Below are positions 9,668 through 41,207 of a stretch of DNA of 64,000 nt, one piece after another. The stretch spans positions 124,001-188,000 of the forward strand of contig JAFSVU010000050.1 in NCBI GenBank assembly GCA_017444825.1. The letters run 5' to 3'. Numbering within the stretch: the stretch's first letter is position 1; every line of letters starts with the position of its first letter. The notes below the pieces were generated by a model that was given only the letters and a program-made list of their open reading frames with translations, ran no database searches and had not been told where the DNA came from. The translations under genes and the position numbers were made by a program. The stretch comes from Clostridia bacterium. Lineage in GTDB: Bacteria > Bacillota > Clostridia > UBA1212.

Positions 9668-12600
9668 TTATTCTCCGGCACCGCCGTCCGGAACGGGGGT
9701 GGGAGTAGGTGTTTCACCGTCGGGTACAGGCGTAGGAGTGGGCGTCTCACCGTCAGGCACAGGCGTGGGCGTAGGCGTCTCGCCGTCAGGTACCGGCGTA
9801 GGAGTAGGTGTCTCACCGTCAGGTACAGGTGTAGGCGTAGGTGTCTCGTCACCGGGCACAGGCGTAGGTGTGGGAGTCTCATCTCCCGGCACAGGCGTGG
9901 GCGTAGGTGTGGGAGTCTCATCTCCCGGCACAGGCGTGGGCGTAGGCGTCTCGTCGCCCGGCACAGGTGTGGGTGTAGGTGTTTCTTCATCCGGAACCGG
10001 AGTGGGAGTAGGCGTCTGCTCATCCTCAGGCTTTGGCGTCGGAGTGGGCTTCGGCGTAGGCGTGGGAGTGGTTACCGGTTCTGCAGTTTTCGATGAAGGC
10101 GCCTCCGTCGGGGTCTCTGTCGGAGCTTCCGTTTCTCCGTCCGGAGTCGGTGAGATCGCGGGAGTTACATTTTCAGTTTCTTCCGGCGCAGGGCTCTCCG
10201 TATCCCACGGCACTTCTTCCGTGTACGAGGGTGCGTCCGTATTTACCGAAGGCTGCGTGGTCGGCGCAGGTGTGTCGTTTTTCTTAAACATCTGGACCGC
10301 AAAGAACGCAAGCACACCGACAACGGCAAGGCATACGACAAATATTACAATTGTGGGCCAAAGGGGCTCTTTGGTTCCCTCCGGTTCTTCCTCAATGCCT
10401 GCAAAGCTCTTGGCGGCGCCAATGACCGTCGGAGGCTCCGTTTTTTCATTGTCAAGTTCCTCTTCAATGTCGTCGAAATCAATGTCGGTCTCGAAGAACA
10501 CGCCTCCGTCATCATCGAAGAACGATCCGTCTACCGAACCGTTTCCGTAAATGCTTGAAGCGCTTGAACCTGAAGCTTCGACTTCAAACACATGGGTCTC
10601 ACCGGTCTCGTTGTCGACACTTTCCACGAATCCGTCTTCTGCGGAATCGCCGCCTTTATTCTCCGGTTCTTCTTCGTCTTTTTCCGCCTCATCATCCTCG
10701 ATCATTTCTTCCTGAGGATTTGCTTTTCTTCTTCTTCCGAACCTGAAGCCCTGCTCGTCTGAGCTGAATGAAACTCTCGTTTTAGGTCTCGCAACAGGAG
10801 CGGCTGCGGCGGGGAATTCTGCGAGCTCTTCTTCCTCTTCCTCGTCCTCTTCCTCATCCTCATCCTCTTTCGAGCCAAAGGTTTCTTCATCTTCGTCGTC
10901 GAAATCAAAGACGATGTTTGTAAAGCCGTCATCATCTTCGGAAGTATCGGTCAGATCGTCCGGTTCTTCATTCACGTCGCCGCTTTCATCATCGCCAAAC
11001 ATGATAAAGTCGGGAGATATGCGGAGTTCTTCCTGCTTGCGGGCAAGGCGCTCAGCTTCTTCTCTTGCGAGGCGTTCCTCCTCTTCGCGGGCTATACGCT
11101 CTTCCTCTTCACGGGCAAGTCTTTCGGCTTCTTCCCTTGCAAGCCTCTCGGCTTCCTCTTTTGCGGCCAGCTCCGCGGCTTCTTTTTCAGCCTGTTCACG
11201 GGCAAGACGCTCTTTCTCTTCGCGGGCTATACGCTCAGCCTCTTCTCTTGCCAGGCGTTCCTCCTCTTCGCGGGCAAGTCTTTCGGCTTCTTCCCTTGCA
11301 AGCCTCTCGGCTTCCTCTTTTGCTGCCAGCTCCGCGGCTTCTTTTTCAGCCTGCTCGCGTGCAAGACGCTCTTCCTCTTCGCGGGCTATACGCTCAGCCT
11401 CTTCTCTTGCCAGGCGTTCTTCCTCTTCGCGGGCAAGTCTTTCGGCTTCTTCCCTTGCAAGCCTCTCGGCTTCCTCTTTTGCGGCCAGCTCCGCAGCTTC
11501 TTTTTCAGCCTGTTCACGGGCAAGACGCTCTTCCTCTTCGCGGGCTATACGCTCAGCCTCTTCTCTTGCCAGGCGTTCTTCCTCTTCGCGGGCGCGGCGC
11601 TCTGCTTCCTCTATCGCGAGTCTTTCTTCCTCCTCACGGGCAAGACGTTCCGCTTCCTCCCGCGCAAGTCTTTCCTCTTCCTCCCGTGCTGCGCGCTCGG
11701 CCTCCTCACGGGCGAGCCTCTCCTGCTCTTCAAGTGCGCGCTTTTCGGCCTCTTCACGGGCAAGTCTCTCTTTCTCCTCGCGGGCAAGGCGCGCCTCCTC
11801 TTCCGCAGCAGCTCTCTCGGCTTCCTCGATCTCTCTTCTGGTCCTCTCCTCCGCGGCATGGCGGGCGGCCATCTCAGCTGCGGCTATGGCGGCAGCCTCC
11901 TCGGCGGCAGCCTCCGGGTCCACCTTGCGGGACCTTCCGGAGTCATTGGTTTTTTCAGCGGAACTGTCAGTTGCGGATGGATCGCTGTTTGCCTCTTCCT
12001 CACCGCAGCACTTAACGACTATTGCAGAGAAATCACCTATGTTGGAATTCTCGCATGCATTCATTATGAATGTCGCGATCTGTGAAGGATCACCCTGGGC
12101 GGTGGCTTCGAGCAGTATCTTTCTGTCGATAATATCGGCAAAAGACGTTCCGACTATCACAAATATCTCACCCTCTGAGGCTGCAAAAGAAGACACATCC
12201 GGCACTGCGGCGTCACGGTTGATGCCGAGATAGCGGACGAGTTTTTTTCTCTGTGGATGTCCCCTAAGCTTCGCCATGGGTATAACGCCCATGGAAGCCA
12301 TTTTCATAGCCTGGGTATGTTCTACGGATATTTCCTTCACCGCGCCGTCTTTAACGGAAAAAACCTTAACGTTTCCGGCGTTTGCAACGGTGATCTTCTC
12401 GTTGTCCGTGCTGAGTACCGCACAGGAGACCTTTGTGTACAGGTCGTTATCGTCTTCGATGGTCTGAGATACGTCAAGAGCCGCATCCGCAAAAAAGTTC
12501 TTCATCAGCCTCTCGATATCCGTGTCCGGATTCTTGAGATAAAAAGCGTGATACTTCTTCAACTTTGCAAAAACCGCGTTAACAGCTGCGTTTCCGGTCA

Positions 12601-12787
12601 CAGGCGAATAGATACCGGTGGCTACGGCAAACATCTGCCGCCCTCCTCTGGCAGTCTTCTGAGTCAGTCTGACCTTATTTCCGCCCATTTCGGCTGTTAC
12701 AACTTTCGAATTGAAGTAAAAATTGTCGCAGAACTTTTCATCTCCCGGTTCGGGACAATATACGACAGCTGATTTAAAGCTTAGCAT
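9668..12787 (-). CDS. Membrane-anchored degenerate PP2C-like protein with long coiled coil and Pro-Thr repeat tail
   Basis: 1039-residue, four-part protein. Residues 1-265 follow the PP2C/SpoIIE strand order (KVSCAVLSTDNEKITVANAG, then GEIFVIVGTSFADIID, then GDFSAIVV). The metal-binding signatures are lost: DGxGG is replaced by ATGIYSPVTG, SDG by GTS and DN by GD, so it is probably not an active phosphatase. Residues 292-584 are an Ala/Glu/Arg coiled coil with a 53-residue unit in tandem. An acidic stretch and one membrane helix (812-832) follow, then about 200 residues rich in PTPTPVPD repeats, presumably outside the cell. The start is ATG at 12787, with GTGAGGTC upstream; a GTG five codons earlier lies inside that ribosome site. 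The function is unknown. Confidence 0.8.
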   Translation of the reverse strand: MLSFKSAVVYCPEPGDEKFCDNFYFNSKVVTAEMGGNKVRLTQKTARGGRQMFAVATGIYSPVTGNAAVNAVFAKLKKYHAFYLKNPDTDIERLMKNFFADAALDVSQTIEDDNDLYTKVSCAVLSTDNEKITVANAGNVKVFSVKDGAVKEISVEHTQAMKMASMGVIPMAKLRGHPQRKKLVRYLGINRDAAVPDVSSFAASEGEIFVIVGTSFADIIDRKILLEATAQGDPSQIATFIMNACENSNIGDFSAIVVKCCGEEEANSDPSATDSSAEKTNDSGRSRKVDPEAAAEEAAAIAAAEMAARHAAEERTRREIEEAERAAAEEEARLAREEKERLAREEAEKRALEEQERLAREEAERAAREEEERLAREEAERLAREEEERLAIEEAERRAREEEERLAREEAERIAREEEERLAREQAEKEAAELAAKEEAERLAREEAERLAREEEERLAREEAERIAREEEERLAREQAEKEAAELAAKEEAERLAREEAERLAREEEERLAREEAERIAREEKERLAREQAEKEAAELAAKEEAERLAREEAERLAREEEERIAREEEERLAREEAERLARKQEELRISPDFIMFGDDESGDVNEEPDDLTDTSEDDDGFTNIVFDFDDEDEETFGSKEDEDEEEDEEEEEELAEFPAAAAPVARPKTRVSFSSDEQGFRFGRRRKANPQEEMIEDDEAEKDEEEPENKGGDSAEDGFVESVDNETGETHVFEVEASGSSASSIYGNGSVDGSFFDDDGGVFFETDIDFDDIEEELDNEKTEPPTVIGAAKSFAGIEEEPEGTKEPLWPTIVIFVVCLAVVGVLAFFAVQMFKKNDTPAPTTQPSVNTDAPSYTEEVPWDTESPAPEETENVTPAISPTPDGETEAPTETPTEAPSSKTAEPVTTPTPTPKPTPTPKPEDEQTPTPTPVPDEETPTPTPVPGDETPTPTPVPGDETPTPTPTPVPGDETPTPTPVPGDETPTPTPVPDGETPTPTPVPDGETPTPTPVPDGETPTPTPVPDGETPTPTPVPDGGAGE
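9700..10035 (-). repeat. 33-bp tandem repeats encoding a Pro-Thr tail
   Basis: About ten copies of a 33-base unit encode ETPTPTPVPDG or DETPTPTPVPG. The copies differ mostly by synonymous changes and by D/G swaps, and one has an extra PT pair. Copy number is likely to vary between strains. Confidence 0.85.
11090..11580 (-). repeat. 159-bp tandem repeat (3 copies) encoding coiled coil
   Basis: The same landmark decamer recurs at 11141, 11300 and 11459, exactly 159 bases (53 codons) apart, with near-identical sequence between. It encodes the block containing EQAEKEAAELAAKEEAERLA. Near-identity at the DNA level suggests recent duplication. Confidence 0.85.
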
Positions 12788-12930
12788 CTGAAACGACCTC
12801 ACAAATTCTTAGTTTTGCATTGGCAAAATAGCTCTATAATTTTAACATACTTCGCCCTTGTTATTCAATGCTGAAATACAGTAATTTATTTCCGAAGGAT
12901 CCCGTCCCGAAGCGGCCTTTTCCCTGTTTT

Positions 12931-14154
12931 TCATCCGCAGGTGAACACTTCCGTCCCTTCGATCGCTTCCTTTTCGAGTTTCTCAAAATCGTATCTGGCT
13001 TCCTCGGCAACGACCTCCTCAAGAGACGGCCTTGTCTTCGGATGCTTCGGCGTGAAAACCGTGCAGCAGTCCTCGTACGGAAGCGTGCTGGTCTCAAAGG
13101 TGCCTATCTCCCTTGCGATCGCGATAACGTCGACCTTGTCCATGGCAATAAGGGGTCTGAACACCGGCATATTCGCCGCGGCATCGGTGCAGTACATTGC
13201 CTGCATGGTCTGGCTTGCCACCTGGCCAATGCTCTCCCCCGTCACCAGGGCCGCACATCCGTTCTTTCTCGCCAATGACTCCGCTATCCTCATCATGGAT
13301 CTTCTCATAATGACAGTTCCCAGTTCATCCCTGCAGTTCTCGTGGATCGCAAGCTGCACCTCGGTGTACGGGACCACCATGACTTTTATCTCGCCGCAGT
13401 AAGCGGACATGATCTTTGCAAGTTCCAGCACCTTCTCCTTCGCTCTTTCACTTGTGTAAGGATAGCTGAAAAAATGCACCGCGCATATTTTGACGCCCCT
13501 CTTTGCGACCATGTATCCCGCCACCGGGCTGTCTATGCCTCCCGACAGGAGCAGGCACGCCTTACCGTTGCTGCCTATGGGCATACCGCCCTTGGCTTTG
13601 TAAATATCCGTGTAGAGGAAGCTCTCCTCCCTCACCTCGCAGTAAAGGATGAAATCCGGCTCATTGACGTCCACGACAAGCTCCGGATAAGTATCGAGAA
13701 GCACTCCTCCAAGTTCGCATGAAATCTCCGGTGACGTCATCGTAAAACTCTTTGCGCCCCGGCGGGTCTCGACCTTGAACCTCACCGGGCCTGTCAGTCC
13801 CCCGCTCTTAAGGGCTTCAAGCTTCTCGCCCGCCACTTTCACAGCCGCCTTTTTTATTTCTTCGAAGTCGGATCTGCATGCAAGAGCAGGGCTTGTGGAA
13901 ACCACTCCGAAAACCCTGGAGGCGGTCTCCATTGCCTTGGCGTAGTCAAAGGGCAGTGACACCGGCACGATGTAAAACCTGGACTGGGACCAGTGTATGT
14001 CCGGTGCGCCGACGTCCTTCAGTTTCTCCCTAAGGTTCCTGTAAAGATTCTTTTCGAATGTCGAACGGTTGAGCCCCTTTAGTGCGATCTCGCCTATTCT
14101 TACGAGAATAATTCTTGCTTCGGGTGCATCCTTGATAACGCTGACATAGTTCAT
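12931..14154 (-). CDS. thiI: tRNA 4-thiouridine synthase ThiI
   Basis: 407-residue ThiI, which adenylates U8 of tRNA and transfers sulfur to make s4U; in some organisms it also serves thiamine thiazole synthesis. It has an N-terminal ferredoxin-like/THUMP region (about 1-170) and a PP-loop pyrophosphatase domain with LLSGGIDSPVAG. There is no C-terminal rhodanese domain, as usual for Bacillota, so sulfur must come from a partner cysteine desulfurase. The gene upstream, 32 bases away, carries such a desulfurase fused to TrmD, matching the nifZ-thiI pair known from Bacillus subtilis. Confidence 0.96.
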   Translation of the reverse strand: MNYVSVIKDAPEARIILVRIGEIALKGLNRSTFEKNLYRNLREKLKDVGAPDIHWSQSRFYIVPVSLPFDYAKAMETASRVFGVVSTSPALACRSDFEEIKKAAVKVAGEKLEALKSGGLTGPVRFKVETRRGAKSFTMTSPEISCELGGVLLDTYPELVVDVNEPDFILYCEVREESFLYTDIYKAKGGMPIGSNGKACLLLSGGIDSPVAGYMVAKRGVKICAVHFFSYPYTSERAKEKVLELAKIMSAYCGEIKVMVVPYTEVQLAIHENCRDELGTVIMRRSMMRIAESLARKNGCAALVTGESIGQVASQTMQAMYCTDAAANMPVFRPLIAMDKVDVIAIAREIGTFETSTLPYEDCCTVFTPKHPKTRPSLEEVVAEEARYDFEKLEKEAIEGTEVFTCG

Positions 14155-14186: not shown

Positions 14187-16058
14187 TCAGCCTCTGACCG
14201 CCCTCTTAAGATCTCTTACGCAACGGAACAGTATCTCCGCGCCGCGTCTTATATCCTCCTCCGTGGTAAACCTGGAAAAGCTGAATCTCACGCTGCCGTC
14301 AATGATCTTCACCGGAACGTTCATTGCCGTAAGAACATGGCTCCTGCTTTTCTTCTTGGAAGAGCAGGCAGAGCCCACGGACACGAACACGTTCTGAGAC
14401 TCAAGGGCATGGAGCAGCACCTCGGCTCTCACAGGTGAGAAGGAGACGTTGAGAATGTAAGGCAGGGACGAAACGTCCGAGTTTATATGTATCTTGTCCC
14501 CGTATTTTTCAATGAGCAGATCCCTGAACAGATCTCTGCATCGCTTTACGTTCTCAAATGACTGACCAATGGCGCCAAAAGCATCCTCCGCCGCAGCCGC
14601 AAAGCCGCATATTGCCGGCAGGTTCTCGGTTCCCGATCTGAGACCGCCCTCCTGTCCGCCTCCCGCAAGTTCAGGTGCGATACGGATTCCCCGTCTGACA
14701 AAAAGGAACCCCGCTCCCCTGGGCCCGTGGATCTTGTGGGCGCTGGCTGTAAGCATGTCGCAGCCCAGGTCTTTAACGTCAATGTTCAGTTTTCCGTACC
14801 CCTGCACGCAGTCGGTGTGAAGAACTATTTTGGGGTTGACGGAGTTTTTAACAGCGGCGATCTCCTTTATGGGCATTACCGCTCCCGTCTCGCTGTTTAC
14901 AGTCATCACCGATATCAGCGCAGTGTCATTGTCGATTAGTTCAAAAAGAGCCTTTAGGTCCACGACTCCTCTCGAGTCGACCGGCGCAAGCACCACGTTG
15001 TAGCCTTCTTTTTCGAGACTTTTGGCAGTTTCAAGAACGGACGGATGTTCGACTGCGGAGACTATGACCTTCTTTCCCGCGTGCCTGTTGGCTCTTAGGT
15101 AGCCCTTTATCGCCAGGTTGTTGGCCTCCGTTCCGGAACATGTAAATATGATCTCGCTTCTGTCCGCGCCAATGGTCCCCGCAACGGTCTCCCTGGCTTT
15201 GGTCAGTTCTTTTTCAGCGGCCATTCCCAATCTTGTCAGGGATGAAGGATTCCCGTAGAATCTTCTGGCCGTGGATGCGACAGTCTCCGTCACCCTCGGG
15301 GTCTGCCTCGTAGTCGCACTGTTGTCGAAATAAATGACTCTTTTGTCGGAATAGGCGCTCTCCTCGTACAGTTCGTAAAGGTCCGGCCGGCGTTCCCTGG
15401 TTATTTTTTCGGCCTCGGCAAGGCGCCACGCGCATATTTCCGCATGGTTTCCGCCGGTCAGTACCTTGGGTACATCCATCCCCTCGAATTCGGCGGGTTT
15501 TGTATACTGAGGATACTCCAGAAGGATCTTTTCAAAGGACTCGTCACCGCCGGACTCGGGAGAGCCAAGAACGCCGGGCACGAACCTGGAAACGGTGTCT
15601 ATCAGCACAGCCGCGGGAAGCTCACCACCGGTAAGAACGAAATCCCCGATGGATATCTCCTCATCGCAGACACTGTCTATAAAGCGCTGGTCAACGCCCT
15701 CATAGTGGCCGCATACCACCACAAGGTACTCCTGCCGAGAAAGCCTCTTTGCCACCTCTGCGCTGAGCTTCGTTCCTCTCGGCGACATGAGAACAGTATA
15801 AGGTTTCCCGTATCCGCTGTTTTCCGCATGCTTTACCGCCGCTCTGTGGCACGACACAAGTGGCTGGCACGTCATCAGCATTCCCGGACCGCCGCCGTAG
15901 GGAGTGTCATCTACTTTATTTTGCTTATTTTCCGAGAAATCTCTTATCTGGTAATAGCCCAGCTCAATGATCCCCGCATCGGTCGCTCTTCCGACAATGC
16001 TCTCGCCAAGGGCCGCCCTAACCATATCCGGAAACAAAGTCAATACGTCTATCTTCAT
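14187..16058 (-). CDS. trmD: Fusion: tRNA (guanine37-N1)-methyltransferase TrmD - cysteine desulfurase
   Basis: One uninterrupted 623-codon frame. Residues 1-~232 are a complete TrmD (SPRGTKL at 92-98, CGHYEGVDQR at 117-126, SIGDFVLTGGE at 136-146, ending in the family's RRPDL). Residues ~240-623 are a complete NifS/IscS-like cysteine desulfurase: YFDNSATT near the start, PLP lysine K442 in SAHKIHGPRGAG and the active-site loop SVGSACSS with C565. No ATG, GTG or TTG suited to a separate second gene is visible at the junction. The known reactions are m1G37 formation from SAM and cysteine to alanine plus a protein persulfide. The next gene is thiI, so the desulfurase half most likely feeds tRNA thiolation. 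The Shine-Dalgarno site is weak. Other NifS roles, such as Fe-S assembly, remain possible. Confidence 0.93.
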   Translation of the reverse strand: MKIDVLTLFPDMVRAALGESIVGRATDAGIIELGYYQIRDFSENKQNKVDDTPYGGGPGMLMTCQPLVSCHRAAVKHAENSGYGKPYTVLMSPRGTKLSAEVAKRLSRQEYLVVVCGHYEGVDQRFIDSVCDEEISIGDFVLTGGELPAAVLIDTVSRFVPGVLGSPESGGDESFEKILLEYPQYTKPAEFEGMDVPKVLTGGNHAEICAWRLAEAEKITRERRPDLYELYEESAYSDKRVIYFDNSATTRQTPRVTETVASTARRFYGNPSSLTRLGMAAEKELTKARETVAGTIGADRSEIIFTCSGTEANNLAIKGYLRANRHAGKKVIVSAVEHPSVLETAKSLEKEGYNVVLAPVDSRGVVDLKALFELIDNDTALISVMTVNSETGAVMPIKEIAAVKNSVNPKIVLHTDCVQGYGKLNIDVKDLGCDMLTASAHKIHGPRGAGFLFVRRGIRIAPELAGGGQEGGLRSGTENLPAICGFAAAAEDAFGAIGQSFENVKRCRDLFRDLLIEKYGDKIHINSDVSSLPYILNVSFSPVRAEVLLHALESQNVFVSVGSACSSKKKSRSHVLTAMNVPVKIIDGSVRFSFSRFTTEEDIRRGAEILFRCVRDLKRAVRG

Positions 16059-16077: not shown

Positions 16078-17385
16078 TCAAACAGGTTTCCCGAGAAGCC
16101 TGAACATGTTCTTTTTGTAGGCCTCTACACCGGGCTGATCGAACGGGTTAACTCCGAGCATGTAGCCGCTTACGGCACAGGCGCGTTCAAAGAAGTAAAT
16201 AAGGCCTCCGATGCCGCGGGCATCCAGCTTCTCTATCGAGATCTTCAGGTTGGGAACGCCGCCGTCGACGTGTGCCATGGCCGTTCCCTTCGCGGCCTGT
16301 TTATTGACAAAATCCATGCCCCTGCCTGAGAGGTAGTTGAGGCCGTCATAATCGTCGGCGTCACTGCCAATGATCAGGTCAGTGGCCGGGGTTCTGACTT
16401 CTACAGCAGTCTCGAACATGAGTCTCACGCCGTCCTGGATATACTGTCCCATGGAGTGGAGATCCGTTGTAAAGTCACAGCCCGCCGGGAACAGGCCCTT
16501 GCCGTCCTTGCCCTCGCTCTCGCCGTAGAGCTGCTTCCACCACTCGGTGAGATAGTGGAGCCCGGGCTCGTAATTGACAAGAAGCTCCACCGCTTTGCCA
16601 CTTCTGTAAAGAGCGGTCCTTGCGGCTGCGTAGGCGTAGCATGGATTGGTTTTGAGATCGCAGCTTTGGTATTCATTGAAGGCCTCCTTTGCGCCGTTAA
16701 CAAGCGCATCGGTGTCTATGCCCGCAACGGCTATCGGGAGAAGTCCCACAGGTGTAAGGACGCTGAACCTGCCGCCTACGTCGTCCGGTATGACAAACGT
16801 TTCATAGCCTTCCGCATCGGCCATTTTCTTGCATGCGCCGCGGGCTTTGTCGGTGGTGGCATAGATGCGCTTCGCGGCTCCCTCACGGCCGTATTTTTTC
16901 TCCAGAAGCTCCTTAAAAAACCTGAAGGTGACTGCGGGCTCCGTTGTTGTGCCGGATTTTGAGATGACGTTGACCGAAAAATCCCTGTCTTTAACCACGT
17001 CGAGAACCGAGGAAAGATAGCCCGGACTTATGGAGTTTCCCGCAAAAATGACGGCGGTTCCGCCCTCTCCCGCCAGAGCCTTTGCATTGGCGAAGGGATC
17101 GGTGAGAGTCTCGATGACTGCTCTTGCGCCGAGATAGGAGCCTCCTATTCCTACGACCACCAGGACCTGCGAATCCTTTCTGATCCTCTCTGCGGCCGCT
17201 TTCACCCTGCCGTACTCTTCTCCGAGTTTGAAAGGAAGATCGTACCATCCGAGAAAATCATTTCCCGCACCGGTCTTCTCCGTAAGCAGTCTGTGTGCGT
17301 TCTCGATCTCAGGTCTCAGCCCTTCGATCGCATCCGAACCTGCGAGATCCGGCGCCATGCTCATATCAAAATCTACAACAGCCAT
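16078..17385 (-). CDS. pgi: Glucose-6-phosphate isomerase
   Basis: 435-residue phosphoglucose isomerase interconverting glucose-6-phosphate and fructose-6-phosphate. It has the SIS-fold motifs [14 protein letters not shown] and [14 protein letters not shown], and the later catalytic segment around [15 protein letters not shown]. The length matches the short bacterial form. The start has GGAGGG directly upstream, and a good promoter lies about 75 bases before it. It is the first gene of a minus-strand run leading into trmD-desulfurase and thiI. Confidence 0.96.
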
Positions 17386-40856: not shown

Positions 40857-41207
40857 TCAAAGTTTCTCTTTGATCTTCGCTGCCTTACCGACTCTGTCTC
40901 TGAGGTAGTACAGTTTAGCTCTTCTGACTTTACCGTGTCTCACAACTGTGATGCCGGCGATCTTGGGCGAATGTACAGGGAAAACTCTCTCAACGCCAAC
41001 GCCGTATGAGATCTTACGAACCGTAAAAGTCTCGCAAAGACCTTCACCGCGCATGCCGATGACAGTACCTTCAAAAACCTGGATTCTTTCGCGGCTGCCT
41101 TCAATAACCTTAAACTGAACCTTTACGTAATCACCGATTCTGAGTTTTACGGGTTCCGCCTTCAGGTAATCAGCCTCTACTGCTTTAATAATATCCATTG
41201 AATTCAC
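40857..41207 (-). CDS. rplS: Ribosomal protein bL19
   Basis: 116-residue bL19 of the large subunit, at the 30S-50S interface. The family signatures [28 protein letters not shown] region and [17 protein letters not shown] are intact. It is a single-gene transcript with its own promoter and terminator. In many Bacillota rplS follows trmD in one operon; here trmD is 25 kb away and fused to another gene. Confidence 0.97.

Follow-up and report, generated by a model that had tools for sequence, protein, structure and literature searches.

A tRNA methyltransferase TrmD fused to a class-I cysteine desulfurase next to thiI in one group of Clostridia

TrmD is an essential methyltransferase, and methylation of G37 is needed for maintenance of the reading frame. 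A fusion of TrmD to a further enzyme is known from TrmD-Tm1570 (PF01746-PF09936); the two genes have been described as separate, adjacent, overlapping, or fused, and the fused protein is a homodimer with active TrmD (PMC11187310). In Bacillus subtilis, NifZ, encoded by the gene immediately upstream of thiI, suffices together with ThiI for the synthesis of s4U (PMC5372745; PMC4041423). The locus analyzed here, located in a stretch of 64,000 nucleotides (the window) from contig JAFSVU010000050.1 of a Clostridia bacterium, resembles each of these systems in part. It contains the same complete domain as tRNA (guanosine(37)-N1)-methyltransferase (TIGR00088, PF01746), scoring over the cut-offs and present as the sole TrmD of the genome, but its C-terminus runs on into a cysteine desulfurase. 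With TrmD-Tm1570 it shares a C-terminal enzyme domain behind TrmD and the same four gene arrangements; however, TrmD is joined there to a second SPOUT methyltransferase and here to a PLP-dependent desulfurase. As in the NifZ-ThiI system for s4U8, a class-I desulfurase gene lies directly upstream of a rhodanese-less thiI, except that the desulfurase here makes up the C-terminal half of a TrmD chain. A search of the open PMC literature yielded no description of a fusion between TrmD and a desulfurase, which agrees with the preliminary description of this DNA, where the architecture was not recognized as a described one; it may also be unnamed in protein databases. The fusion is real and conserved, of apparent single origin and apparently undescribed, a new combination of ordinary parts. 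It places an essential methyltransferase and a sulfur-mobilizing enzyme on one chain and links two modifications made at tRNA sites far from each other.

The fused gene (14187-16058, minus strand, as are its parts) is one uninterrupted frame of 623 codons, starting with ATG and encoding a protein with a predicted mass of 67.9 kDa. Residues 1-229 (15372-16058) would constitute the TrmD half, a predicted SPOUT m1G37 methyltransferase, and residues 241-623 (14187-15338) the putative cysteine desulfurase half, separated by a junction of residues 230-240 (15339-15371) devoid of a start codon. Complete domains were found by Pfam for both TrmD (tRNA_m1G_MT, PF01746; residues 23-225, E 3.1e-52) and class-I cysteine desulfurase (Aminotran_5, PF00266; residues 242-604, E 6.8e-70). 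The PF01746 score of the TrmD half was 177.6 bits versus a cut-off of 27.3 bits, and the NCBIfam TrmD models also exceeded their curated cut-offs (289.5 versus 220 bits and, for TIGR00088, 278.6 versus 195 bits). The desulfurase half matched the NCBIfam models for NifS, IscS, and DndA, all well under the equivalog cut-offs (the best, NifS, at 378.9 versus 530.75 bits), and it is therefore addressed as a class-I cysteine desulfurase and not filed as NifS, IscS, or DndA proper. Its K442, the PLP lysine, and C565, the active-site cysteine within the motif GSACSS, align with those of solved cysteine desulfurases and are intact, as had been claimed. In the TrmD half, E120, R158, and E173 align with E116, R154, and D169 of the E. 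coli enzyme, and GGNH, containing the GNH motif, is also present. At the position of the catalytic D169 of E. coli, every fusion has Glu, as do the order's unfused TrmDs and the TrmDs shown from clostridial outgroups; judged from this alignment, the catalytic and tRNA-binding residues of TrmD are in place, with Glu for Asp at E173. K442, C565, E120, and R158 were kept in 24 out of 24 full-length fusions. An AlphaFold model of the fusion was poor (pLDDT 57.5, pTM 0.45), having been built from eight sequences only.

The same fused frame was present in 27 of the 31 genomes of the order that were searched (24 full length and three contig-end fragments still spanning the junction), which, together with the two complete Pfam domains, bears out the claim of a single chain of TrmD and desulfurase. 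The carriers belong to four families (f1, f2, f4, and f6), and their sequences, between 84% and ~51% identical, are free of in-frame stops; within the genus of the window, dN was 0.06-0.26 versus a dS of >1.3 (often saturated) for both halves. Three genomes of the order are unfused (G010, G012, and G014), and in G008 (69% complete) both TrmD and ThiI are absent from the assembly. Exactly one TrmD per genome was detected with PF01746 in the fused carriers; a separate, spare TrmD beside the fusion was sought in the order with the same model and was not encountered. Since the fused chain is the sole TrmD in 27 genomes, it would have to supply m1G37. The carriers are one group of Clostridia, with rumen species among them. 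Full-length fusions were also found in same-genus records of uncultured Ruminococcus sp. RUG12790 (L031), Clostridia bacterium RGIG10266 from yak rumen (L032), and Mageeibacillus sp. UBA1243 (L033), which are probably the same records as G004, G002, and G001, respectively, and not extra independent cases. Outside the order, no fusion was found in samples of the class (391 genomes, 16 of the order and ~375 others) and the phylum (398 genomes), drawn from a collection in which about half of the GTDB species are represented. In G328, an open frame of 1034 aa was considered as a second kind of fusion but proved on inspection to be separate genes.

The gene order in relatives suggests how the fusion may have come about. 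In the outgroups, the closest related desulfurases, of the same type, lie directly upstream of thiI, and trmD mostly follows rimM, often as ffh-rpsP-rimM-trmD and then, in several, rplS. Likewise, in family f3 (G010), trmD is part of ffh-rpsP-rimM-trmD and desulfurase-thiI is on another contig (L072 and L071). In family f5 (G012 and G014), the order is ffh-rpsP-KH-rimM-trmD-desulfurase-thiI, with the trmD stop and the desulfurase start sharing a 4-nt ATGA overlap. In most carriers, the fused gene has stayed at the ffh-rpsP-rimM-trmD site, and it lies between rimM and thiI in f2, f4, f6, and G007 wherever rimM was recognized. In the genus of the window and in G006, the fusion and thiI are instead located behind pgi (glucose-6-phosphate isomerase; 16078-17385, minus strand, in the window) or a gene called there by position only, and in this genus rimM follows rpsP-KH on another contig, without trmD behind it. 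In IQ-TREE phylogenies, all fused genes formed one group for the TrmD half (97/95) and, more weakly, for the desulfurase half (87/95, below the starred level), in both cases with f5 beside it, a placement as the adjoining branch that depends on rooting by outgroups. In the TrmD tree, the branch to the genus of the window is also long (0.76; in the desulfurase tree, 0.24), following the departure of the gene from the ribosomal cluster. The simplest reading is an apparent single fusion, located at the ATGA overlap. A desulfurase-thiI pair would first have inserted downstream of trmD, within the ffh-rpsP-rimM-trmD operon; trmD and the desulfurase gene would then have acquired the ATGA overlap; and a small indel at this site, presumably a deletion of two bases (TG) or a change to the same effect, would have removed the trmD stop and the desulfurase start together. 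Fusion and thiI would have moved beside pgi only later, in the genus of the window. Read in this way from gene order, living relatives preserve the route from separate via overlapping to fused genes. This reverses the direction given in the preliminary description, where trmD had joined the desulfurase-thiI pair: the arrangements in f3 and the outgroups, in f5, and at most fused loci indicate that desulfurase-thiI joined trmD. That rplS is now apart from trmD was correctly noted; in several outgroups the two adjoin, and in the window rplS is separate (40857-41207, minus strand).

In the window, thiI (12931-14154, minus strand) starts 32 nt downstream of the fusion and encodes a 407-aa protein without a rhodanese domain, which aligns along its length with ThiI of B. 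anthracis and T. maritima, including SGGIDS and the region of the active-site cysteine. The linkage of desulfurase and thiI, already claimed from the window, holds throughout: thiI is directly downstream in 30 out of 30 thiI-bearing genomes of the order, with assembly breaks inside the fusion in G005 and G024. By its position directly upstream of a rhodanese-less thiI, the desulfurase would be of the NifZ type in all 30, and the outgroup loci are alike. The thiI of G001 (L044) is in two pieces, which probably reflects either an error in sequencing or a gene that is broken. Because of its homology to the B. subtilis NifZ-ThiI system and the position of its gene, the fused desulfurase is most likely the sulfur donor of ThiI. 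Taken together, we consider it highly probable that the chain is one bifunctional tRNA-modification enzyme of single origin whose desulfurase half is a NifZ-type persulfide donor for ThiI. Its N-terminal half, as the sole TrmD of the cell, would make m1G37, and its C-terminal half, as a dedicated NifZ-type desulfurase, would transfer sulfur from cysteine to a persulfide on C565, to be passed to the ThiI encoded next door for s4U8. Both activities probably operate in vivo, and the hand-over of persulfide from a tRNA-binding protein to ThiI, as suggested earlier, appears plausible.

An artefact of assembly or sequencing has practically no likelihood as an explanation of the frame. The same junction recurs across 27 different genomes, whose full-length copies are as little as ~51% identical, and an uninterrupted frame in 27 out of 31 genomes of the order excludes an assembly error. 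The preliminary description had named a hidden stop or frameshift, or relatives in which exactly this point is occupied by two separate genes, as grounds for doubt; the former is excluded by the 27 genomes, whereas the latter exist in f5 but, being an unfused branch that adjoins the fused group in the tree, are not evidence of error. Another conceivable reading is that the one frame yields two proteins, through cleavage in the linker or through an internal initiation that gives free desulfurase. The linker is indeed variable: it contains no invariant column, its mean pairwise identity is 24% (TrmD, 64%; desulfurase, 55%), and the distance between RPD and Y(F/L)DNSATT, 15-16 residues in most members, is 5 in f6 and 31 in f4. 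In some members, a potential start (ATG, GTG, or TTG) does precede DNSATT at a distance of 1-35 codons. However, the positions of these codons differ, and 13 of the 24 full-length fusions, including that of the window, lack any of them in the 40 codons before DNSATT, so that the earlier statement that no alternative start is visible at the window's junction stands and a conserved internal start is ruled out. ATT at the window's junction was dismissed as an alternative start, the codon not being kept within the genus, and in f6 the TrmD part passes almost straight into the desulfurase (KRPDLITDIYLDNS). We consider the production of two proteins very unlikely, and the unconserved linker speaks for what would be a simple tether. 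That the joining itself was neutral, i.e., that a chance indel connected two overlapping, co-transcribed genes and left two independent enzymes on a string that nothing splits again, has in our estimation an even chance of being true. This is compatible with a bifunctional enzyme and differs from it only on whether tethering matters. The linker length, 5 to 31 residues, fits neutrality, as does the evident viability of the unfused arrangement in f5 and the unlinked one in f3 and the outgroups; the lack of any fission across the 27 fused genomes, which span four families, and the joint move of fusion and thiI in the genus of the window point the other way, despite both being compatible with neutrality too. 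An assembly on the tRNA, in which TrmD would sit on the anticodon arm and the tethered desulfurase would load ThiI at the elbow, with m1G37 and s4U8 coupled or ordered, seems a doubtful proposition. The preserved steps of separate, overlapping, and fused genes make coupled tRNA modification directly testable.

The bifunctional reading assigns the desulfurase to ThiI; it could also be a general sulfur donor, not specific to ThiI, at least in the genome that contains the window (G000), which we regard as rather unlikely. In this genome (97% complete), only two proteins match class V strongly, the fusion and one that reads as SerC, and the draft assembly gave no match to IscS or SufS and no strong one to IscU; the fusion is its only strong cysteine desulfurase match, and sister genomes have iscR-iscS-iscU (L100 and L102). 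However, a single three-gene cluster could be missed in a draft assembly, most fused relatives own a further desulfurase, and the constant partner of the fusion is thiI. The lack of another desulfurase in G000 is either an assembly gap or a real loss; in the latter case, the fused enzyme would be the only desulfurase of the cell.

Downstream of thiI, the window encodes a 1044-aa protein (9668-12802, minus strand) whose N-terminal region resembles a phosphatase by eye and which also has long EEERLAREEAER repeats and a tail rich in PTPTPVP. Partial homologues of this protein occur near the fusion in the genus of the window and in G006.
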